NCBI GenBank assembly: GCA_019356535.1
Contig: CP037918.1
Coordinates: forward strand, 744,001-808,000
Source of the DNA: Chromatiaceae bacterium
GTDB taxonomy: Bacteria > Pseudomonadota > Gammaproteobacteria > Chromatiales > Chromatiaceae
Direction: 5' to 3'
DNA length: 64,000 nucleotides
The translations under genes and the position numbers were made by a program. The notes beneath the pieces were generated by a model. The model was not told the DNA's origin, made no database searches, and saw only the letters and a list, made by a program, of their open reading frames with translations. How positions within the stretch are numbered: position 1 is the stretch's first letter; the number at the start of each line of letters is the position of its first letter. Shown one piece after another: positions 21,075-52,775 of the stretch.

Positions 21075-21255
21075 CCCGTCCTTCTCCCTCCCCGCTTGCG
21101 GGGGAGGGGCTTTCTGATCAGGTGCGTTTTGCGTGTGCTAAGCTCACGCAGGCGAAGGCGGTGGGCGCCCCCTCCCGGCCTCCCCCGCAAGCGGGGGAGG
21201 GGGGGCACAAGCGGGGAGGGGCGGATGGTGGTCCCTCCGCGAGTGGGGAGGGGCT
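21075..21255. repeat. GC-rich palindromic repeats (two hairpin units)
   Basis: Two units with CCCCGC/GCGGGG stems at about 21086-21112 and 21168-21205 fill the convergent gap between the family 2 glycosyltransferase and the wecA-like gene. The second matches the window-wide core (CCTCCCCCGCAAGCGGGGGA). They may serve as bidirectional transcription stops. Confidence 0.75.
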
Positions 21256-26114: not shown

Positions 26115-26330
26115 CCTATCCACTAGCAGGGAAGGAGTAAGGCCCCTCCCCGCCCTCCCCGCACGCGGGGAGGGCGCAACCTTCTCCCCGACCTTCCTCG
26201 CGAGTTGGGAGTGAGTCGCGTCTTTCCCGGGCTTTGACGGGCGGAGAGGGGAGTACTCGTGGGCGGGAAAGGAGTAGCCCCTCCCCCACTCGTGGAGGAG
26301 GCTGGGAGGGGGCCCCGGGGCAAGGTGGCA
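26115..26330. repeat. GC-rich palindromic repeats (three units)
   Basis: Units at about 26135-26172 (CCCCGCACGCGGGGAGGG), 26195-26255 and 26278-26315 (CCCCTCCCCCACTCGTGGAGGAGG). The gap from 26085 to 26418 contains no gene, the remaining 90 bases before the ligase gene show nothing recognisable. Confidence 0.72.
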
Positions 26331-27829: not shown

Positions 27830-27958
27830 ACGCTTCCCCGCCTGCGCAGGAGGGCGGGATGAATGCTCCTCCCCCACTTGTGGGGGAGGCCGGGAGGGGT
27901 GAACGCACCCGATCGGCAGGCCCCTCCCCAACCCTCCCCGCGAGCGGGAAGGGAGTAC
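27830..27958. repeat. GC-rich palindromic repeats, target of the IS3 element
   Basis: Two units (CTCCCCCACTTGTGGGGGAG at about 27869-27888, CCCTCCCCGCGAGCGGGAAGGG at about 27932-27953) end in GAGTAC, where the IS3 element begins. A similar GGGGAGTACTCG phrase occurs at 26248, so the element entered a repeat unit. Confidence 0.7.
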
Positions 27959-28026
27959 TGATGTGGTCTAGTGATTTTGGACACCCCAAGGAGCGCTCAA
28001 CTCTCCAAATGACTGAGGTGTTCAAG

Positions 28027-28332
28027 ATGACAAGAAAGAGCTACACGACGGATTTCAAACGAGAAGCGGCCAGCCTGGTGCTGGACCAAGGGTACAGCGT
28101 ACGGACAGCCTGCGAAGCGATGGACGTTGGCCACACGGCGATGCGGCGCTGGGTTAATCAGCTCCGTCAGGAACGCGAGGGCATCACGCCAGAGAAAAGC
28201 AAGGCACTGACCCCCGAGCAACAACGTATCCAGGAACTGGAAGCCCGACTGAGGAAGGTCGAGCGGGAGAAAGAAATCCTAAAAAAAGCCACCGCGCTCT
28301 TGATGTCGGATTCGCTGGGAAACGCCAGTTGA
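28027..28332 (+). CDS. IS3-family transposase OrfA
   Basis: A 101-residue protein with an N-terminal helix-turn-helix (YTTDFKREAASLVLDQGYS, then ACEAMDVGHTAMRRWVNQL) and a C-terminal leucine-zipper coiled coil (QRIQELEARLRKVEREKEIL). It binds the inverted repeats and forms the fused OrfAB transposase after ribosomal frameshifting at the A7 run near its end. The start ATG 28027 lies 68 bases inside the element. Confidence 0.93.
   Translation: MTRKSYTTDFKREAASLVLDQGYSVRTACEAMDVGHTAMRRWVNQLRQEREGITPEKSKALTPEQQRIQELEARLRKVEREKEILKKATALLMSDSLGNAS
28281..28288 (+). other. Programmed -1 frameshift site of the IS3 element
   Basis: Seven A then G (28281-28288) reads A AAA AAA in the orfA frame. A -1 slip continues KKSHRALDVGFAGKRQ without a stop straight into orfB, giving the OrfAB fusion expected for this family. 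Confidence 0.75.
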
Positions 28333-29168
28333 TCAACAAGTTGAGAGCGCATTACTCGGTGGGGGAGCTGTGTGAAGTACTGGAGCTGCCGCGCAGCAGT
28401 TATTACTACGGAGAAAAACGCCAGGGCCGAGTGGACCCGATGCGAGAGCGCCTGAAAGCCAAGGTGGTCGCGCTGCATGCGGCCAGCCGGGGCACGGCGG
28501 GTTCACGGACCCTGTCGGCGGCGCTACGGGCGGAAGGTGAGGCGGTAGGCCGTTACAAGGCCCGGCATCTGATGCGGGAAGCCGGGATTGTCAGCCGCCA
28601 ACGGCGTCCCCATCGGTATCGAGTGGCCGCTCCGGCGTCGCGAATTGCGCCCAACCGGCTGAATCGGGCATTCAGGGTGGCACGCCCTGATGCCGTCTGG
28701 TGCGGGGATGTGACCTACATCTGGACGGGGAGTGGGTGGCTGTATCTGGCCGTGGTGCTGGACCTGTATGCCCGTCGGGTGGTGGGCTGGGCCATGTCCC
28801 GCAGCCCCGACTCCGAGCTGACCAAACAGGCCCTGGCGGTGGCCTACGAGGCCCGGGGGTGTCCGGAGGGGGTCCTGTTTCACTCGGACCAGGGCTGTCA
28901 TTACAGCAGCCAGGCGTTTCGTGAACGGCTAAAAGAATACGGCATGATTCAGAGCATGAGCCGACGAGGAAACTGCTGGGACAATGCGCCAATGGAGCGG
29001 TTTTTCGGGAGCCTCAAATCCGAGTGGATTCCAGAGAGAGGCTATCGCAGTTACCAGGAAGCGCAGAGCGATATCCTTACTTACCTCACCCACTACTACA
29101 ATCGGGAGCGTCCACACAGTTTTAACGACTACCTGCCTCCGGTCTCCGTAGAGGCCAGGGCCGCATAG
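28329..29168 (+). CDS. IS3-family transposase OrfB (DDE integrase)
   Basis: Seen as a 279-residue frame overlapping the orfA stop by 4 bases. It has the HTH_21-like N-terminal part (LCEVLELPRSSYYYG) and the retroviral-integrase-like core: VWCGDVTYIWT with the first Asp, LFHSDQGCHYSSQAF with the second Asp, and NCWDNAPMERFFGSLKSEW with the catalytic Glu. It is normally made as a fusion to OrfA by the -1 frameshift. All three DDE residues are present, so the element may still be mobile. Confidence 0.93.
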   Translation: MINKLRAHYSVGELCEVLELPRSSYYYGEKRQGRVDPMRERLKAKVVALHAASRGTAGSRTLSAALRAEGEAVGRYKARHLMREAGIVSRQRRPHRYRVAAPASRIAPNRLNRAFRVARPDAVWCGDVTYIWTGSGWLYLAVVLDLYARRVVGWAMSRSPDSELTKQALAVAYEARGCPEGVLFHSDQGCHYSSQAFRERLKEYGMIQSMSRRGNCWDNAPMERFFGSLKSEWIPERGYRSYQEAQSDILTYLTHYYNRERPHSFNDYLPPVSVEARAA

Positions 29169-38625: not shown

Positions 38626-38675
38626 TTATGATGTCGGCGGGCTGTCCGCCTTTCGAGGGCATCGGGAGCGCACCA

Positions 38676-39566
38676 GTGAAACAATCGATCAAATCCCTTT
38701 CTGCCGCTATCCTGCTCGGGCTTGCGAGCGGCGCCGGTCAGGCGCTCGCGCAGGGTTATCCGCAAGGCGGTGGCTCCGCGCCCCAGCAGCCACCGGCCGC
38801 TCCCTATGGTTATGCCCAGCCGGGCTATGGTGATTACGGCTATGGCCAATACCCGGGCTATGGTTACCAGGCCCCGCCGCCGGCCGGTGCCTACGCCTAT
38901 CCGGGGGGGCAGGGGTATTACCCGCCGGCCTATGGATACAGCATGCCTTACGGTGGCGCTCCGCGCGGCTTTGGCAAGAAGCGCTGGGACGATTGGGACC
39001 TGTTTGGAGGCGACAATCCGCTGCAGAATCCCCTGGACCACGAAGGCTACTGGGCACATCCGCGGTTCCAGCCCTGGCGCAGTGGGCCCTTCGCGCACGA
39101 CAAATGGCGCGATCACCCCATGAAGCAGATGCCCTGGGGCAATTTCCCGGGCTGGGGCGAGGGCTTCTTCGGTGGCTATGGCCCCGACCGCTGGAAGGGG
39201 GTGACGCCGTGGGGCAATGATGTGCCTTTCAAGTGGATCGACCCCTCCGATCCCGAAGAGTCCATAGCCAACATGTGGGAGGACGCCATCAACACCCCGT
39301 ACAACATGGGGCGCATGCCGCCGGGCTGGACCGCGCCCCAGATCAGCGTGCCCAACCCCATCGACGTGGAAAACGAGTTCGAGCGCAACTTCCGTAACGC
39401 GCCGACCGAGTTCCGCAACATGTGGAGCGAGGAGGGGGCGGGCTTCGGCTCCGCTGGCAAGCCCAAGGAGAAAAAGGCAGAAAAGAAGCCGCAGCAGAAG
39501 CCGGCTGCCGCAAAGCCGGGTCCGGGGGTTGAGCAGGCTGCATCGGCTCCGGCCGCGTCCCGCTGA
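38676..39566 (+). CDS. Secreted Pro/Gly/Tyr-rich protein, sulfur-globule-protein-like
   Basis: The start is GTG 38676 behind GGGAG, giving 296 residues with a clean signal peptide (KQS, hydrophobic core, AQA-type cut near residue 26). Residues 27-90 are a low-complexity Gln/Pro/Gly/Tyr region with repeated PGYG, YGYGQYPGYG and PAYGYS units, as in sulfur globule envelope proteins. The second half has conserved-looking aromatic blocks (WGNDVPFKWIDPSDPEES, NTPYNMGRMPPGW). The tail is Lys/Ala/Pro-rich. A structural role on periplasmic sulfur globules is a plausible inference, not shown. Confidence 0.65.
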   Translation: MKQSIKSLSAAILLGLASGAGQALAQGYPQGGGSAPQQPPAAPYGYAQPGYGDYGYGQYPGYGYQAPPPAGAYAYPGGQGYYPPAYGYSMPYGGAPRGFGKKRWDDWDLFGGDNPLQNPLDHEGYWAHPRFQPWRSGPFAHDKWRDHPMKQMPWGNFPGWGEGFFGGYGPDRWKGVTPWGNDVPFKWIDPSDPEESIANMWEDAINTPYNMGRMPPGWTAPQISVPNPIDVENEFERNFRNAPTEFRNMWSEEGAGFGSAGKPKEKKAEKKPQQKPAAAKPGPGVEQAASAPAASR

Positions 39567-39599
39567 TCCGCAGTCACTGGCCGACAGTACACGCACGCC

Positions 39600-39810
39600 T
39601 CATTCCTCCCGTGCAAGCGGACGCTGATCATAGGCCCAGCAAGCGGAGAGGGTTTGGTTTGAGGCAGCCTGGAGGCCCATGTGTCCTTTGAGCTCTTTGC
39701 GGTTTGCCCCCTCCCGGCCTCCCCCGCAAGCGGGGGAGGAGTGACAGTCCTTTCGGCAATCGGGAGTCGTCCCCTCCGCGTGTGCGGGGGAGGGTCGGGG
39801 AGGAGCTACT
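39600..39810. repeat. Composite repeat block leading into the tandem array
   Basis: 39622-39740 resembles 47259-47367 (shared phrases include GTTTGAGGCAGCCTGGA versus GTTTGAGGCTGCCTGGA, and CTTTGCGGTTTGCCCCCTCC), ending in a CCTCCCCCGCAAGCGGGGGA hairpin. A second hairpin (CCCCTCCGCGTGTGCGGGGG) follows at about 39770-39795. Confidence 0.75.
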
Positions 39811-40290
39811 CGGCATGGCTAGGACTCGACACCTTCGTCATCGCGATCAGCCTCTATCCCTTACGTCAGTGGAGCCGCAAGCGGGGGCCAACCCTCGGTA
39901 ACCGGGGAAACCGCCCCCTCCCCGTGAGCGGGGAGGGCCGGGGAGGGACTACTCGGCATGGCCAGGACTCGACACCTTCGTCATTGTGACCAGCCTCTAT
40001 CCCCAAGGTCAGTAGCGCTGCAAGCGGGGACCAACCCTCGGTAACCGGGGAAACCGCCCTTTCCCCGTGGGTGGGGGCGGGGAGGGACTACTTGGCATGG
40101 CCAGGACTCGACACCTTCGTCATTGCGGCCAGCCTCTATCCCTTAGGTCAGTAGCGCTGCAAGCGGGGACCAACCCTCGGTAACCGGGGAAACCGCCCCC
40201 TCCCCGCGAGCGGGGAGGGCCGGGGAGGGGCCGCCCGGCATGGACAGGCATCGCACCTTCGTCATCCCGACCAGCCTCTACCCGTTCCGC
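39811..40290. repeat. Tandem array of a ~140-bp composite repeat (three copies plus a partial)
   Basis: Copies begin at 39811, 39954, 40093 and 40236 (periods 143, 139, 143). Each holds GGCATGGCCAGGACTCGACA, then CCTTCGTCATxGxGxCCAGC, CTCTATCCC, a GTCAGTAG phrase, ACCAACCCTCGGTAACCGGG, and a CCCCTCCCCG/CGGGGAGGG hairpin. The fourth copy stops after CTCTACCCG. No open frame spans it. The gap from 39567 to 40406 has no gene. Confidence 0.9.
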
Positions 40291-40406
40291 AAGTGTAGGA
40301 GGACCTTGTTAGAGGGTTCCCTTGCGGTCTGGATGCTACTGGATTTGCAATTCGGGGCGCCATGCATTAAATATTTGCGCGGCATTCCCGGATTGCGGTG
40401 GTATCG

Positions 40407-42353
40407 ATGCACGCTCCCCTTTGGCAACCTGATGACTCTCTCCGGCAAGCGGCCGAGGTCACCCGCTTCATGGCCTGGCTGCGCGAGCGCGGTCTGTACC
40501 GAGAAAGCGACGATTTCCAGGCGCTTTGGCGTTGGTCGGTAGACCAGCCCGAGGTCTTCTGGTCTGCACTTTGGGAGTGGCACGGTATCCTCGGCGAGCG
40601 TTCCGGTCCGGTGCTGGTGGATGGCGAGCGCATGCCGGGTGCGCGTTTCTTTCCTGAGAGTCGTCTCAATTTTGCGCAAAATCTGTTGCGTGAGGCCGAC
40701 GGCCAGCCTGCACTGGTGTTTCACGGGGAGGACGGTCGGCGGATCGAGCTGAGCCGCGCCGAACTGCGGCAACGCGCCCTGGCGCTGGCGGGTTGGCTGC
40801 GCGAACAGGGTGTGGGGCCCGGCGACCGGGTGGCCGCCTATGTGCCCAACATCCCGGAGGCGGTGATCACCATGCTCGCCACGGCCAGCCTGGGGGCTGT
40901 CTATTCCAGCTGTTCTCCGGATTTCGGCTTTGAAGGGGTGCTGGACCGCTTTGGCCAGATCCGCCCCAAGGTGCTGGTTGGCGTGGATGGCTACCACTAT
41001 GCCGGCAAGCGCATCGAGCGCCTGGACACGCTGTCCCGCCTCGCCGCCGCCTTGCCTGACCTGCAGGCCGTGCTGGTGCACGGCTACCTGGAATCGCAAC
41101 CGGACCTGTCCGGCGTGCCGGGGGCCATGCCTTTCGACCAGGCACTGGCACATGAGCCGCTGGATGACTTCGTGCCGGTCGGTTTCAACGATCCGCTCTA
41201 TATCCTGTATTCCTCCGGCACGACCGGGGTGCCCAAGTGCATCGTGCATGGCGTGGGCGGTACGTTGCTGCAACACGTGAAGGAACTGCGACTGCATTGC
41301 GACGTGCGAGCCGGCGACCGGGTGTTCTACTTCACCACCTGTGGCTGGATGATGTGGAACTGGATCGTCTCGGCGCTGGCGTTGCGCGCCACAGTGGTGC
41401 TGTATGACGGCAACCCCCTGTACCCGGGCCCGGAACGCCTGTGGGAGATGGCGGCCCGCGAAAGACTGAGCTTGTTCGGGACTTCCGCGAAATACCTCGA
41501 TACCGTGCGCAAGTCGGGCTACCGGCCCGGCGATGAGCAGGATCTCTCGGCGCTGCGTGTGCTGTGCTCGACTGGTTCTCCCCTGAGCCCGGAAGGCTTC
41601 GAATTTGTCTACGACGCGGTCTCTCGTGACCTGTTGCTGGCCTCGATCTCCGGCGGCACGGACATCATTTCCTGCTTCGTGCTGGGCACGCCGCTGCAGC
41701 CGGTCTATGCCGGCGAGATCCAGACTCGGGGGCTCGGCATGGACGTGGCGGTGCTCGACGAGGACGGCAAGGCGGTGGTCGGCGAGGCAGGGGAGCTGTG
41801 CTGCCTGAGTCCTTTCCCGAGCATGCCGGTCGGCTTCTGGAACGATCCCGATGGCAGCCGCTATCGGGCAGCCTATTTCGAGCACTTCCCCGGTATCTGG
41901 CGGCACGGTGACTGGGCCACGCTCACCGAGCGGGGCGGCGTGGTCATTCATGGACGCTCCGACGCGGTGCTGAACCCTGGCGGCGTGCGCATCGGCACCG
42001 CCGAGATCTATCGCCCGGTGGAGGCCTTCGAGGAGGTTGCCGAGGCGCTGGTGGTGGGGCAGCAGTGGGAGGGCGACGTCCGGGTGATCCTGTTCGTGCG
42101 TCTCGTGCCCGGTGCGCGGCTGGACGCAGACCTGGAGCAACGGCTGCGTCGCGCGATCCGGGAACGCGCCTCGCCCCGGCACGTGCCCGCCAGGATCCTG
42201 GCAGTGGACGATATCCCGCGCACCCGTTCAGGCAAGATCAGCGAGCTGGCGGTGCGAGATGTGATCCATGGCCGGCCGGTGAAGAATACCCATGCGTTGG
42301 CTAATCCCGAAGCCCTGGCCTGCTTCCGGGATCGCCCGGAGCTGCAGTCATGA
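40407..42353 (+). CDS. Acetoacetyl-CoA synthetase (acetoacetate-CoA ligase)
   Basis: A 648-residue ANL-superfamily adenylating enzyme (GTG 40398 is an alternative start). The N-terminal SRLNFAQNLLR block, the AMP motif YSSGTTGVPKCIVHG, FYFTTCGWMMWNW, and the C-terminal GRSDAVLNPGGVRIG and RSGKISELAVRD with the catalytic Lys identify the acetoacetate-CoA ligase family. It activates acetoacetate with ATP and CoA to acetoacetyl-CoA. It overlaps the thiolase gene as ATGA, which would split acetoacetyl-CoA into two acetyl-CoA. The nearby BKACE gene would supply acetoacetate. Confidence 0.9.
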   Translation: MHAPLWQPDDSLRQAAEVTRFMAWLRERGLYRESDDFQALWRWSVDQPEVFWSALWEWHGILGERSGPVLVDGERMPGARFFPESRLNFAQNLLREADGQPALVFHGEDGRRIELSRAELRQRALALAGWLREQGVGPGDRVAAYVPNIPEAVITMLATASLGAVYSSCSPDFGFEGVLDRFGQIRPKVLVGVDGYHYAGKRIERLDTLSRLAAALPDLQAVLVHGYLESQPDLSGVPGAMPFDQALAHEPLDDFVPVGFNDPLYILYSSGTTGVPKCIVHGVGGTLLQHVKELRLHCDVRAGDRVFYFTTCGWMMWNWIVSALALRATVVLYDGNPLYPGPERLWEMAARERLSLFGTSAKYLDTVRKSGYRPGDEQDLSALRVLCSTGSPLSPEGFEFVYDAVSRDLLLASISGGTDIISCFVLGTPLQPVYAGEIQTRGLGMDVAVLDEDGKAVVGEAGELCCLSPFPSMPVGFWNDPDGSRYRAAYFEHFPGIWRHGDWATLTERGGVVIHGRSDAVLNPGGVRIGTAEIYRPVEAFEEVAEALVVGQQWEGDVRVILFVRLVPGARLDADLEQRLRRAIRERASPRHVPARILAVDDIPRTRSGKISELAVRDVIHGRPVKNTHALANPEALACFRDRPELQS

Positions 42354-44539: not shown

Positions 44540-44645
44540 GGAACCTCCGAACAACGTCCTCCCCCGCAAGAGCGGGGGGCGGGTGGGGGCTAAGTCCTTG
44601 TTTGAAAGCCCCCTTCCAACCTCCTCCATTTCATGGAGGGGTGAA
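44540..44645. repeat. GC-rich palindromic repeats (two diverged units)
   Basis: CTCCCCCGCAAGAGCGGGGGG at about 44560-44582 and CCTCCTCCATTTCATGGAGGGG at about 44620-44642. The latter is AT-richer in its loop than other units. Confidence 0.65.
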
Positions 44646-47084: not shown

Positions 47085-47350
47085 TGGAGTTTCCTCCTGC
47101 TTGCGGGGGAGGGGTGACAACCCTCGACAACCCGGGAAAAACGCCCCCTCCCTGCTTGCGGGGAGGGCTGGGGAGGGGCCGCCTGGCATGGTCGGGAATC
47201 ACCACCTTCATCATCGCGACCGGCCTCTATCTCTTATGTCAGTAGAGCTGAAGGCAGGCGCTGATCTGAGTCCGCAAGCAGAGAGGATTCGGTTTGAGGC
47301 TGCCTGGATACCTTTGTGTTCTTTGCGGTTTGCCCCCTCCCAGCCTCCCC
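47085..47350. repeat. Composite repeat modules, diverged copy of the 39.6-40.3 kb block
   Basis: Hairpin and ACAACCCTCGACAACCCGGG phrases (47100-47170) are followed by one diverged unit of the 140-bp repeat (GGCATGGTCGGGAATC, CACCTTCATCATCGCGACC; 47185-47257) and by the 47259-47367 block shared with 39622-39740. Confidence 0.78.
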
Positions 47351-47351
47351 C

Positions 47352-47495
47352 GCAAGCGGGGGAGGAGTTGATTGGTAGGTGTCTGCAAGCGGGGGAGGAG
47401 CTGATCAGGCGGTGTCCGCAAGCTGGGGGGAGGAGCTGATCAGACGGGTGTCCGCAAGCCGGGGGAGAGTTGATCAGGCGGTGCCTGCAAGCGGG
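47352..47495. repeat. Short tandem repeat array, ~33-bp unit
   Basis: The phrase (C/T)GCAAGCGGGGGAGGAGCTG followed by ATCAGGCGGTGTC recurs at 47352, 47384, 47417, 47453 and (partly) 47486, spacing 32-36 bases. Each unit is half of the window-wide hairpin plus a TGATCAG-like linker, so the array arose by amplification within a repeat element. Confidence 0.82.
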
Positions 47496-47499
47496 GACT

Positions 47500-49104: not shown

Positions 49105-50022
49105 ATGGATATCTTCGTCGTCGCGCTGGTTGTCCTTGCCGTCGTGGTCGTGGTGCTGGGCGTCAAGCGGGTGCCGCAAGGCATGGAGTACACGGTCGAG
49201 CGCTTCGGGCGTTACACCCGTACTTTGCGGCCCGGCCTGAACCTGATCGTGCCGGTTATCGATCAGATCGGGCATCGCCAGAACATGATGGAACAGGTGC
49301 TCGACGTGCCCTCGCAGGAGGTCATCACTCGCGACAACGCCATGGTCACGGTCGACGGCGTGGTGTTCTTCCAGGTGCTGGACGCGGCCAAGGCGTCCTA
49401 CGAGGTGAACGACCTGTACCGTGCCATTCTCAACCTCACCATGACTAACATCCGTACCGTCATGGGCTCGATGGATCTGGACGAACTGCTCTCCCAGCGC
49501 GATCACATCAATGCGCGCCTGCTCAGCGTGGTGGACGATGCCACCACTCCCTGGGGCGTGAAGGTGACGCGCATCGAGATCAAGGACATCGCGCCACCCA
49601 AGGACCTGGTGGACGCCATGGCCCGGCAGATGAAGGCCGAGCGCGACAAGCGCGCCGCCATCCTCGAGGCCGAGGGCCTGCGCCAGGCCGAGATCCTCAA
49701 GGCCGAGGGCGAGAAGCAGTCGGCCATCCTCACTGCCGAGGGTGAGAAGGAGGCCGCCTTCCGCGAGGCCGAGGCACGCGAACGCCTGGCCGAGGCCGAG
49801 GCACGCGCCACTGCCATGGTCTCGCAGGCCATCGCCCAGGGCGACATCAACGCCATCAACTATTTTGTCGCTCAGAAATACACCGAGGCCCTGCAGGCCA
49901 TCGCCTCGGCCGAGAACCAGAAGGTCATCATGATGCCGCTGGAGGCAGCCAACCTGATCGGCTCGGTGGCCGGCATCGCCGAGATCGCCAGGCAGGCCGG
50001 CCAGAAAGGGGACGCCCAATGA
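49105..50022 (+). CDS. SPFH/Band 7 protein (QmcA/stomatin-like)
   Basis: A 305-residue protein with one N-terminal membrane helix (residues 4-20), an SPFH domain (GVKRVPQGMEYTVERFGRYTRTLRPG, VDGVVFFQVLDAAKA) and a long Ala/Glu/Arg coiled coil (residues about 170-250) with an IAQGDINAINYFVAQKYTEAL end. It assembles into membrane microdomain cages. The stop overlaps the nfeD start (ATGA), the standard partner arrangement. GGGAG precedes the start. Confidence 0.92.
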   Translation: MDIFVVALVVLAVVVVVLGVKRVPQGMEYTVERFGRYTRTLRPGLNLIVPVIDQIGHRQNMMEQVLDVPSQEVITRDNAMVTVDGVVFFQVLDAAKASYEVNDLYRAILNLTMTNIRTVMGSMDLDELLSQRDHINARLLSVVDDATTPWGVKVTRIEIKDIAPPKDLVDAMARQMKAERDKRAAILEAEGLRQAEILKAEGEKQSAILTAEGEKEAAFREAEARERLAEAEARATAMVSQAIAQGDINAINYFVAQKYTEALQAIASAENQKVIMMPLEAANLIGSVAGIAEIARQAGQKGDAQ

Positions 50023-50617: not shown

Positions 50618-51763
50618 TTACAGGCAAAACCGTTCGATCAACCGGCGGACGATCTGCTGCGCCGGTTCGAGCTGGGCGAGTTCGATGTACTCGTCAGGCT
50701 GGTGGGCCTGGTCGATGTGACCGGGCCCGAGGATCACGGTATCCATGCCCATGGCATTGAGGAAGGGGCCCTCGGTGGCGAAGGCGACAGCGCCCGCGGT
50801 ATACCCGGTGAGCGCCTCGACCGCGCGCACGATCTCGGCTTCGGCGGGTGTCTCCATGGCAGGCACGCCCTCGAACAGGGGCTCGCGCTGGATGCGCAGG
50901 CCCGTCGCTTCCTGCAGACGGGCCAGGCGGCTGTCCAGTTCCTCGCGCAGCCCCTGGAGCGACATGCCGGGCAGGGGGCGGATGTCGAAGTGCAGCTCAC
51001 ACTGGCCGCAGATGCGGTTGGGGTTGTCGCCGCCGTGGATGTGGCCGAGGTTGAGTGTCGGCACTTCGACCGCGAACAGCGGGTTATGGTGATGCCGCTG
51101 CAGCTCGTCGCGCCAGGCCAGCAGTTCGCCGATCACCTGGTACATGCCTTCGAGCGCGTTGTTGCCCAGTGCGGGGTCGCTGGAATGCCCGGAGCGGCCG
51201 ATGACGCGGATCGCCTCCATGGTGATGCCCTTGTGCATGCGTACCGGGCGCAGGCCGGTGGGCTCGCCAATCACCGCGTGGCGCCCCAGTCGGCGGTGGA
51301 GGTCGAGCAGGCTGCGTGCACCGCACATGCTGCTCTCCTCGTCGGCGGTGGCCAGCAGCACCAGCGGCTGCTTCAGGGTGTGCAGGTCGAGATCGCGGAT
51401 CGCCTCGAGTACCACCGCAAAGAAACCTTTCATGTCGGCGGTGCCCAGGCCGTACCAGCGGCCGTCGGCTTCGCGCAGGCGCAGCGGGTCGCCGTTCCAG
51501 CGGCCCTCGTCGAAGGGCACGGTGTCGGTGTGCCCCGAGAGCACCAGGCCGTCGGGGCCACTGCCGGCACTGGCGATCAGGTTGTACTTGCCAGGACGGC
51601 CCGGTACCTCGAGGATCTCGACCGTAAAACCGGCATCGCGGCACCATTCGGCCAGGTGTTCGATCACCTGGCGGTTGGACTGGTCCCACTCAGGGCTGAC
51701 ACTGCTCACCGAGGGCGAGCCGATCAGCCGCCGCATCATCTCTGGCAGGTCGGGGTAGTGCAT
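50618..51763 (-). CDS. argE: Acetylornithine deacetylase
   Basis: The start is ATG 51763 (MHYPDLPEMMRRLIG). The longer in-frame extension covers the oppositely oriented neighbour and is rejected. The 381-residue M20-family metallopeptidase has the metal ligands in LSGHTDTVPF (H78, D80), GTADMKGF (D110) and TADEESS (E142, E143), plus the dimerisation domain. It hydrolyses N-acetylornithine to ornithine in arginine synthesis, matching argA nearby. Related succinyl-diaminopimelate desuccinylase is less likely by the GRWNGDPL and ADMKGFFAVVLEA stretches. Confidence 0.9.
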   Translation of the reverse strand: MHYPDLPEMMRRLIGSPSVSSVSPEWDQSNRQVIEHLAEWCRDAGFTVEILEVPGRPGKYNLIASAGSGPDGLVLSGHTDTVPFDEGRWNGDPLRLREADGRWYGLGTADMKGFFAVVLEAIRDLDLHTLKQPLVLLATADEESSMCGARSLLDLHRRLGRHAVIGEPTGLRPVRMHKGITMEAIRVIGRSGHSSDPALGNNALEGMYQVIGELLAWRDELQRHHHNPLFAVEVPTLNLGHIHGGDNPNRICGQCELHFDIRPLPGMSLQGLREELDSRLARLQEATGLRIQREPLFEGVPAMETPAEAEIVRAVEALTGYTAGAVAFATEGPFLNAMGMDTVILGPGHIDQAHQPDEYIELAQLEPAQQIVRRLIERFCL

Positions 51764-51808
51764 GTGTCGAGATTGCACTAGTGACGGGGTTTCGTCCAGT
51801 ATGAGCGC

Positions 51809-52528
51809 ATGATGCGGATTGCCGACTGGCGCGATGAGACAGGTTACCAGGCACTGCGAGGCTGCGACGGCGCGGCCTGGGCCTGGGAGTTTCTGCGCCG
51901 CAATCCCGACTACCAGCGCGAATGGCAGGCCTTCATGAATACCTGGGAGGCGCTGGAGGCGGCCTATGGCCGGCCGCCGGACCGTGACTTCTGTGCCTGG
52001 AAGAACGATCCTCGCGCCTGGGTGCGGGTGAGCGACGAGACGGCGGGTGACTGTCGCATCGACCAGGACAAGGTGCTGATCGAGTGTGCTCTGGGCGCAC
52101 GCTGGGGCTTCCACAAGTTTCCGCCCGACCCGCGTGACGACGATGCCGTGGTCGCGGGACGTCTGAGCTGGCGGCCACGCGAGCAGTCGGTGGCGCGCCT
52201 GGTCGAGCCAGGCGAGGCCGACGTGCTCGATCCCCGGTGTGAGGCCCTGGTGCGTTTCGACCTGGCCCTGCCGTTGCGTGAACAGCTCGAGCAGGCCAAG
52301 CGCGCCCTGCAACTAGAACAGCGCCGGCGCCGTCGCGAGGAGGGGCTGGAAATACGCCGTATCGGGATCCTCGAGCCGCAACTGGTGCGTGAATTGCGCC
52401 TGCTCGACGCGCTCGCCGCCGATGCCGGGGAGGTGGCTATCGAGCGTCTGGGCGGGCGGGCGATGCTGGATTCGGCCATGGCACGGCGGGACGGCGGTTA
52501 TCTCGAGTTGCCGCTGTTACCGGCCTGA
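51809..52528 (+). CDS. Conserved hypothetical protein with DUF6499-like start
   Basis: A 239-residue soluble protein, divergent from argE with only 45 bases between starts. The N-terminal DWRDETGYQALRGCDGAAWAWEFLRRNPDYQREW pattern resembles the small transcription-regulator-like domain DUF6499. The middle (WGFHKFPPDP) is unfamiliar and the C-terminal half has a basic, coiled-coil-like segment (LEQAKRALQLEQRRRRREEGL). DUF6499 proteins usually also have a DUF2285 domain, which I cannot recognise here. Function unknown. A role in DNA binding is only a guess. Confidence 0.6.
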   Translation: MMRIADWRDETGYQALRGCDGAAWAWEFLRRNPDYQREWQAFMNTWEALEAAYGRPPDRDFCAWKNDPRAWVRVSDETAGDCRIDQDKVLIECALGARWGFHKFPPDPRDDDAVVAGRLSWRPREQSVARLVEPGEADVLDPRCEALVRFDLALPLREQLEQAKRALQLEQRRRRREEGLEIRRIGILEPQLVRELRLLDALAADAGEVAIERLGGRAMLDSAMARRDGGYLELPLLPA

Positions 52529-52534
52529 CGCCCT

Positions 52535-52775
52535 GCCGGGGAATGCCCCCTCCCGGCCTCCCCCATGCCTGGGGGAGGAGTAAAGTGCACTTTTTCAGCT
52601 CCGCTCGGAATGACCTAAGGGGCGGATGCTGGCCGGGATGACGAAGGTGTCGACTCCTGGTCACGCTGGGCGCCCCCTCCCCGCCCCCGTACGCGGGGAG
52701 GGGGCGGTTTTCCCCGGTTGCCGAGGATTCACCCCTCCCCCGCCTGCGGGGGAGGACGGGAGGGGGCGGCTCAGA
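52535..52775. repeat. GC-rich palindromic repeats including an inverted composite unit
   Basis: A hairpin at 52548-52578 is followed at about 52634-52735 by a reverse-complement copy of the 140-bp repeat: GGATGACGAAGGTGTCGACT at the start and GGTTTTCCCCGGTTGCCGAG near the end. A last hairpin (CCCCTCCCCCGCCTGCGGGG) abuts the tetR stop. Confidence 0.78.

Follow-up and report, generated by a model that had tools for sequence, protein, structure and literature searches.

The window analysed here is a 64,000-nucleotide stretch from the genome of a Chromatiaceae bacterium (G000; a single contig, C1, of 2,745,378 bases); positions are those of the window unless prefixed with C1. On its forward strand, at 39771-40290, a tandem array of a 143-bp composite unit lies between two forward-strand genes. 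The upstream gene (38628-39566) encodes a 312-aa protein with no Pfam match, for which the label sulfur-globule-like is unsupported; the downstream gene (40398-42353) matches only AMP-binding domains in Pfam, and its description as acetoacetyl-CoA synthetase-like is our reading of the sequence. TRF reports one tandem array at 39771-40280 (period 143, 3.6 copies, 86% matches), bearing out an earlier note on this DNA that described three full copies and a partial of a 140-bp composite, with starts at 39811, 39954, 40093 and 40236; the module spacings are 143, 139 and 142. The two non-palindromic 20-mers singled out in that note are likewise where it placed them: GGCATGGCCAGGACTCGACA at 39812, 39955 and 40094 with 0-1 mismatch each, a fourth copy near 40237 having more than 4 mismatches, and ACCAACCCTCGGTAACCGGG at 39887, 40030 and 40169. 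At up to 4 mismatches neither had a match in three Markov-1 shuffles.

The array is flanked upstream, at 39622-39742 on the forward strand, by the 3' (tail) half of a full-length, Y-type composite, 81% identical to the full-length copy at 47118-47400; this flank includes a triplex motif (TM) of a larger hairpin class on the reverse strand (39706-39739; class II scan, 0 mismatches, loops 6 and 3), opposite in orientation to the array hairpins. All further elements are on the forward strand. Unit 1 has a degenerate TM at 39772-39806, recognized from the sequence and a composite match at 39763-39863 but missed by the class II scan, followed by the first copy of the non-palindromic module (39811-39863; GGCATGG...CACCTTCGTCAT...). 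A spacer (CCAACCCTCGGTAACCGGGGAAACCG; 39887-39912), recurring at 40030 and 40169, then leads into unit 2, with a TM at 39915-39948 (scan, 1 mismatch) and a module at 39954-40006. The TM of unit 3 (40057-40086), placed by alignment, is degenerate and about 4 nt shorter, the same columns being absent in the copy at 52610, and is followed by a module at 40093-40146; unit 4 has a perfect TM at 40198-40230 and a module at 40236-40286. Half of the array's four hairpins are degenerate, and the repeated part of the composite is limited to spacer, hairpin and module. Two readings were rejected on this anatomy: a coding repeat, as the spacings of 143, 139 and 142 break a single frame, and a CRISPR, as the stretches separating the hairpins are repeats too.

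The array junctions consist of GCAAGCGGGG followed by (A/G)CCAACCC, and the full-length copies have a GCAAGC-like sequence where the array junction falls; at the corresponding point the full-length copy at C1 725161 has AGCAGCAAGCAGG and a partial copy near 47485 has CTGCAAGCGGGGACTAACCC. From these junctions we infer that slippage or recombination at the shared GCAAGC may have given rise to the 143-bp unit. Pairwise identity among units 1-3 is 85-89%, and these three have in common GGACTCG and TACT variants that are not shared by the dispersed copies compared; unit 4 is 79-84% identical to units 1-3, and 87% identical to the dispersed copy L003, its nearest relative. Because these changes are common to units 1-3 and unseen in the dispersed copies compared, the three units were probably amplified in place, and slippage or unequal recombination is therefore the likely local mechanism; judged by their sequences, the units are too diverged for a very recent amplification. 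Hence, the claim that the repeat is not simple slippage holds for the repeat family but not for the array.

The earlier note made no mention of a triplex motif. As defined by Holder et al. 2015 (PMC4666352), the G/C-rich class II intrastrand triplex motif has three stems of 6-15 nt (pyrimidine, complementary purine and mirror purine), loops of 1-6 nt and at most one mismatch. The conserved hairpins here comprise a C-rich arm, a 6-nt loop, a complementary G-rich arm, a 3-nt loop and a mirror-image G-rich arm, and the one at 40198 falls within that definition (stems 8, loops 6 and 3, 0 mismatches); by sequence, then, the array hairpin belongs among the G/C-rich class II intrastrand triplex motifs. 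A scan that allowed first loops of up to 8 nt found 17 such motifs in the window, whereas all five Markov-1 controls had none; those at 39915 and 47145 are reported with loops 8 and 1, and the sequence of the match at 44621 looks unrelated to the others. In G000 the exact hairpin core is found 74 times and its reversed pattern once. Counts of the core range from 2 to 44 in the seven congeners and from 0 to 4 in the remaining 46 of the 55 genomes, while G028 has 52.

The hairpins fall into two classes, whose tails were counted in 282 kb of G000. The larger class (arm GGGGGAGG), with 60 hairpin strands, has a mirror-only tail in 30, direct-only in 0, both in 1 and neither in 29; as each hairpin was counted on both strands, this amounts to about one tail found per hairpin. 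The second loop in this class is CCG in 16, TTG in 5 and CTG in 4. The array hairpins are of the smaller class (arm GGGGAGGG), in which 14 of 34 strands fit both readings, 0 are mirror-only, 1 is direct-only and 19 fit neither; this class therefore cannot distinguish a mirror from a direct tail. Five (-)/(+) hairpin pairs are present in the window, at 26174/26280, 39739/39915, 47365/47588, 50545/50559 and 52578/52734. The whole 143-nt unit folds no better than its shuffles (z -0.95 and +0.24 for the two strands), and isolated motifs folded as DNA had no clear excess stability (z -0.10 to -1.75) in a program without a triplex model. In the E. coli study, no triplex signal was obtained from the motif in double-stranded form, and DMS footprinting in vivo gave no support for a stable triplex (PMC4666352).

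The composite is a dispersed family in G000. BLAST with the array gave at least 27 matches, and a composite sequence model built on 11 copies gave at least 25, of which at least 12 exceed 60 bits: 4 in the array and at least 8 dispersed (C1 791119, 1890582, 1159920, 796612, 725151, 1888092, 2607179 and 1093390). The modules are thus dispersed in the genome; confinement to the array, which would have counted against the earlier note, was not seen. The diverged copy it had placed at 47185-47257 does exist, and is larger than described: the forward-strand segment 47118-47640 contains, besides a full-length composite and two further partial copies, a tandem array of period 33 (TRF and sequence searches). 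The full-length composite (47118-47400) runs from spacer through hairpin, non-palindromic module and a longer tail to a reverse-oriented larger-class hairpin; this second array (47349-47496) has a TM next to its start, and half of that hairpin is contained in each unit. Similarly, the inverted copy given as about 52634-52735 is present but extends over about 52610-52745, in a reverse-strand feature at 52610-52770 (sequence searches and class II scan) with a TM on the other strand at 52734. A longer module beside some copies has 12 matches in G000, 2 in G005 and 0 in six other congeners. The composite model has matches in at least 15 of the 142 genomes searched, G000 included; most of those outside G000 cover mainly the hairpin, and among the matches listed one exceeds 60 bits, in G005. 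A third palindrome family (CCCTGACAGGG...CCCTGTCAGGG) was seen inside the composite copy at L187, about C1 2049260-2049300, and a like palindrome recurs at the orthologous G005 site (in L182). The full-length composite at C1 725157-725420 (L007, L140) ends 9 bp ahead of a G005 synteny block, and the sequence upstream of it has no match in the G005 stretches compared.

The sister species G005 is about 92% identical to G000, and many of the compared stretches are collinear. G005 has no array, so that a copy number fixed in all relatives, the other outcome that would have refuted the earlier note, was likewise not seen; nor is the array present upstream of the orthologous gene in G006 and G003 (one genome per species). 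The array site, moreover, lies in an interval (39525-40306; C1 783525-784306) between the end of one synteny block and the start, in inverted orientation, of the next; on this breakpoint the earlier note was also silent. C1 779611-783525 corresponds to G005 736001-739921 in the same orientation, and C1 784306 onward corresponds to G005 1858440 downward; at the other end, C1 1995373 downward pairs with G005 740241 upward, and C1 1995498 upward with G005 1858649 upward. The synteny pattern corresponds to an inversion of about 1.21 Mb between G000 and G005. Its second breakpoint in G000 (C1 1995373-1995498) overlaps a larger-class TM hairpin at 1995387-1995431; of the G005 junctions, 740089-740183 holds GTAG-type repeats and a piece of composite tail, and about 1858534-1858613 a weak, degenerate composite match (E 1.6e-4). 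The module orientations at the four breakpoints allow no crossover to be reconstructed from these residues. The array site and the inversion breakpoint coincide; the repeats may or may not have caused the inversion, and either species may carry it.

A broader comparison with G005 covered 18 intergenic regions of at least 40 bp from about 22.2 to 63.6 kb of the window, with genes called by codon-position substitution bias; the calls are approximate, and a likely reverse-strand gene at 50618-52312 was called on the other strand. The aligned fractions of the seven TM-bearing regions (0.76, 0.81, 0.16, 0.11, 0.03, 0.87 and 0.00) all fall below those of the 11 TM-free regions (0.90-1.00; one-sided Mann-Whitney p = 2.5e-4, against one sister genome). 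Two long alignment gaps in coding sequence, 49345-49613 and 51454-51690, have no TM; thus, TM sites are not the sole variable places. On an alternative reading, breakpoints may lie in repeats only because repeats sit between genes. Two sites illustrate the form that change takes. At site F (C1 1858176-1858774) two CCCGGCCTCC repeats, of which one lies within a TM, are joined in G005, which lacks the roughly 0.6 kb found between them in G000; at site D (C1 794512) G005 has a single fused palindrome as against two hairpins in G000. Further comparisons outside the window concerned sites chosen for carrying these repeats and are not a fair sample. Fusion of inverted pairs was described by Holder et al., who also report that the TM_ECO loci of E. 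coli are more variable than controls (PMC4666352). The G005 sites B, C and E are filled with other sequence, at B and C other repeats, and therefore offer no clean empty site.

Several further differences from G005 were observed in the window. An IS3-like element at 28025-29168 (integrase core, Pfam rve), with GTAC on each side, lies amid TMs at 27868, about 27914 and 29255, where G005 has a single motif and no element. The first 21,168 positions (1-21168) have no collinear counterpart in the G005 stretch compared, and the boundary falls on TM hairpins at about 21087-21200; between the blocks flanking this segment G000 exceeds G005 by about 20 kb. About 270 bp (49345-49613) in the ORF 49105-50022 are absent from G005, adjoining a 33-bp repeat at 49633-49774.

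Taken together, we propose, with a probability of roughly 0.68, that the array arose by local amplification of a REP/BIME-like intergenic mosaic, and that the triplex-motif hairpin of this mosaic promotes slippage or recombination at microhomologies. Briefly, the following mechanism is plausible. When single-stranded during replication, the motif might fold as a hairpin or triplex and stall the fork; the nascent strand could then slip or switch template at short homologies. Slippage or template switching of this kind would account for the in-place amplification of units 1-3, and through it sister sites might also be deleted, fused, rearranged and occasionally inverted. As published footprinting did not support an in-cell triplex, a plain hairpin would serve equally. 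A precedent comes from starved E. coli, in which 22 of 90 junctions were reported in REPs, with short homologies (PMC3161906). A link between triplex motifs and instability has been reported in E. coli; the present proposal would carry it over to another genus, whose motif differs in sequence, and would add concrete outcomes: a tandem array formed in place, an apparent microhomology junction and an inversion on the megabase scale. The sister pair also supplies defined loci for separating the role of the mirror arm from that of the hairpin.

Slippage leaves the dispersal of the long composite unexplained. A rival reading is a transposase-moved element, a REPIN or MITE in which an inverted hairpin pair plus module is moved in trans by a RAYT or other transposase and the array forms by serial insertion. 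The inverted (-)/(+) hairpin pairs recur, five of them in the window, the composites are dispersed and are missing at the orthologous G005 sites B and C, and tandem REPIN clusters including flanks are known (PMC3116915). Against this, we found no match to Y1_Tnp (PF01797), the only transposase family in the search, in G000 at E<=0.001, with the E. coli control positive; 15 of the 16 motifs examined have no GTAG within or shortly ahead of them (the search ran from 12 nt ahead of the motif start to 45 nt past it, with the match at 44621 left out); no target duplication was seen in the sites compared and none is a clean empty site; and array units 1-3 share derived changes. We consider this transposase reading, serial insertion included, improbable. 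As Y1_Tnp genes occur in 5 of the 8 genomes of the genus, though none was detected in G000, a past transposase supplied from elsewhere could possibly have dispersed the composite. The claim that the unit is mobile or recombining thus stands as to the dispersal of the modules but not as to transposition, given the lack of a clean empty site with target duplication and of a detected Y1_Tnp. Conversely, TM mosaics might both spread and amplify without any transposase, only by template switching at stalled forks, the same events having made the inversion of about 1.2 Mb; we regard this as improbable, though if it were true one small repeat family would shape chromosome structure between sister species.

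The units stand head-to-tail and in register, and the window has a second array of a different period, as expected of an ordinary minisatellite produced by plain slippage of any 143-bp sequence, with the hairpin irrelevant. However, that 33-bp array also begins beside a TM and includes half of its hairpin in the unit, instability goes with TM-bearing regions as a group, and the composite occurs elsewhere in the genome; we hence view a minisatellite of this kind as distinctly unlikely. The least credible of these readings is that the array was selected as a terminator, mRNA stabilizer or upstream regulatory region, as might be suggested by its G/C-rich hairpins and its position between two same-strand genes. 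A consensus scan of 39500-40450 found no terminator-like or sigma-70-like site, and a terminator or promoter was rejected on this ground; the G005 alignment resumes at 40306, so that G005 retains the stretch immediately ahead of the synthetase gene without having the array; and in G006 and G003 apparent coding sequence directly precedes the orthologous gene, with no array. E. coli TMs are likewise reported to be without promoter or terminator activity (PMC4666352). A non-coding RNA was also rejected: at gathering thresholds the window gave no Rfam match, and the unit is not unusually stable on either strand. We found no sign of a host function, and the array can be explained without one.

In terms of known systems, triplex-motif repeats with inverted pairs (PMC4666352) and tandem REPIN clusters with flanks (PMC3116915) are already on record. 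The closest parallel is with the TM_ECO or potential intrastrand triplex (PIT) elements of E. coli and other proteobacteria, with which the present motifs share the class II purine-motif geometry, a second loop of 3 nt (mostly CCG, TTG and CTG here; CCG or TTA in TM_ECO), intergenic location, opposite-strand inverted pairs, a very uneven distribution between relatives and high local variability (PMC4666352). They differ in stem sequence and length (8 here versus 9; PMC4666352), and in that some motifs here are joined to non-palindromic modules and one motif is tandemly amplified. TM_ECO proper was rejected, with 0 exact matches in the window to CCCTCNCCCN3-6GGGNGAGGGN3GGGNGAGGG, the published tolerance being one mismatch. 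As with BIMEs and REPINs (REP doublets; PMC3116915), there are inverted intergenic palindrome pairs and tandem clusters including flanks, and two inverted REPs, the defining arrangement of a REPIN, have a counterpart in the five (-)/(+) pairs; unlike them, the present elements have no GTAG in 15 of 16 motifs, no Y1_Tnp detected in G000, two hairpin classes and longer modules. A RAYT-driven REPIN was rejected, as Y1_Tnp was not detected in G000.

The Neisserial intergenic mosaic elements, in which several repeat families are interleaved in intergenic regions, are alike in arrangement only. A literature search by words rather than by sequence, and of partial coverage, found no published description of the motif sequence or the composite. 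Short intergenic stem-loops that occur as dimers and clusters also characterize the GTAG- and CGTC-tagged REPs (PMC3733652), from which the triplex motifs here differ in being without tags. GTAG-type repeats nevertheless occupy or adjoin some of the orthologous sites in G005, and the two genomes have different repeat complements: the GTAG-type repeat GGGCCTCCTAC occurs 23 times in 154 kb of G005 (L181, L182, L196, L197 and L233-L237) versus once in 282 kb of G000, and triplex hairpin cores occur 8 times in the former versus 49 times in the latter, in stretches partly chosen for the cores.
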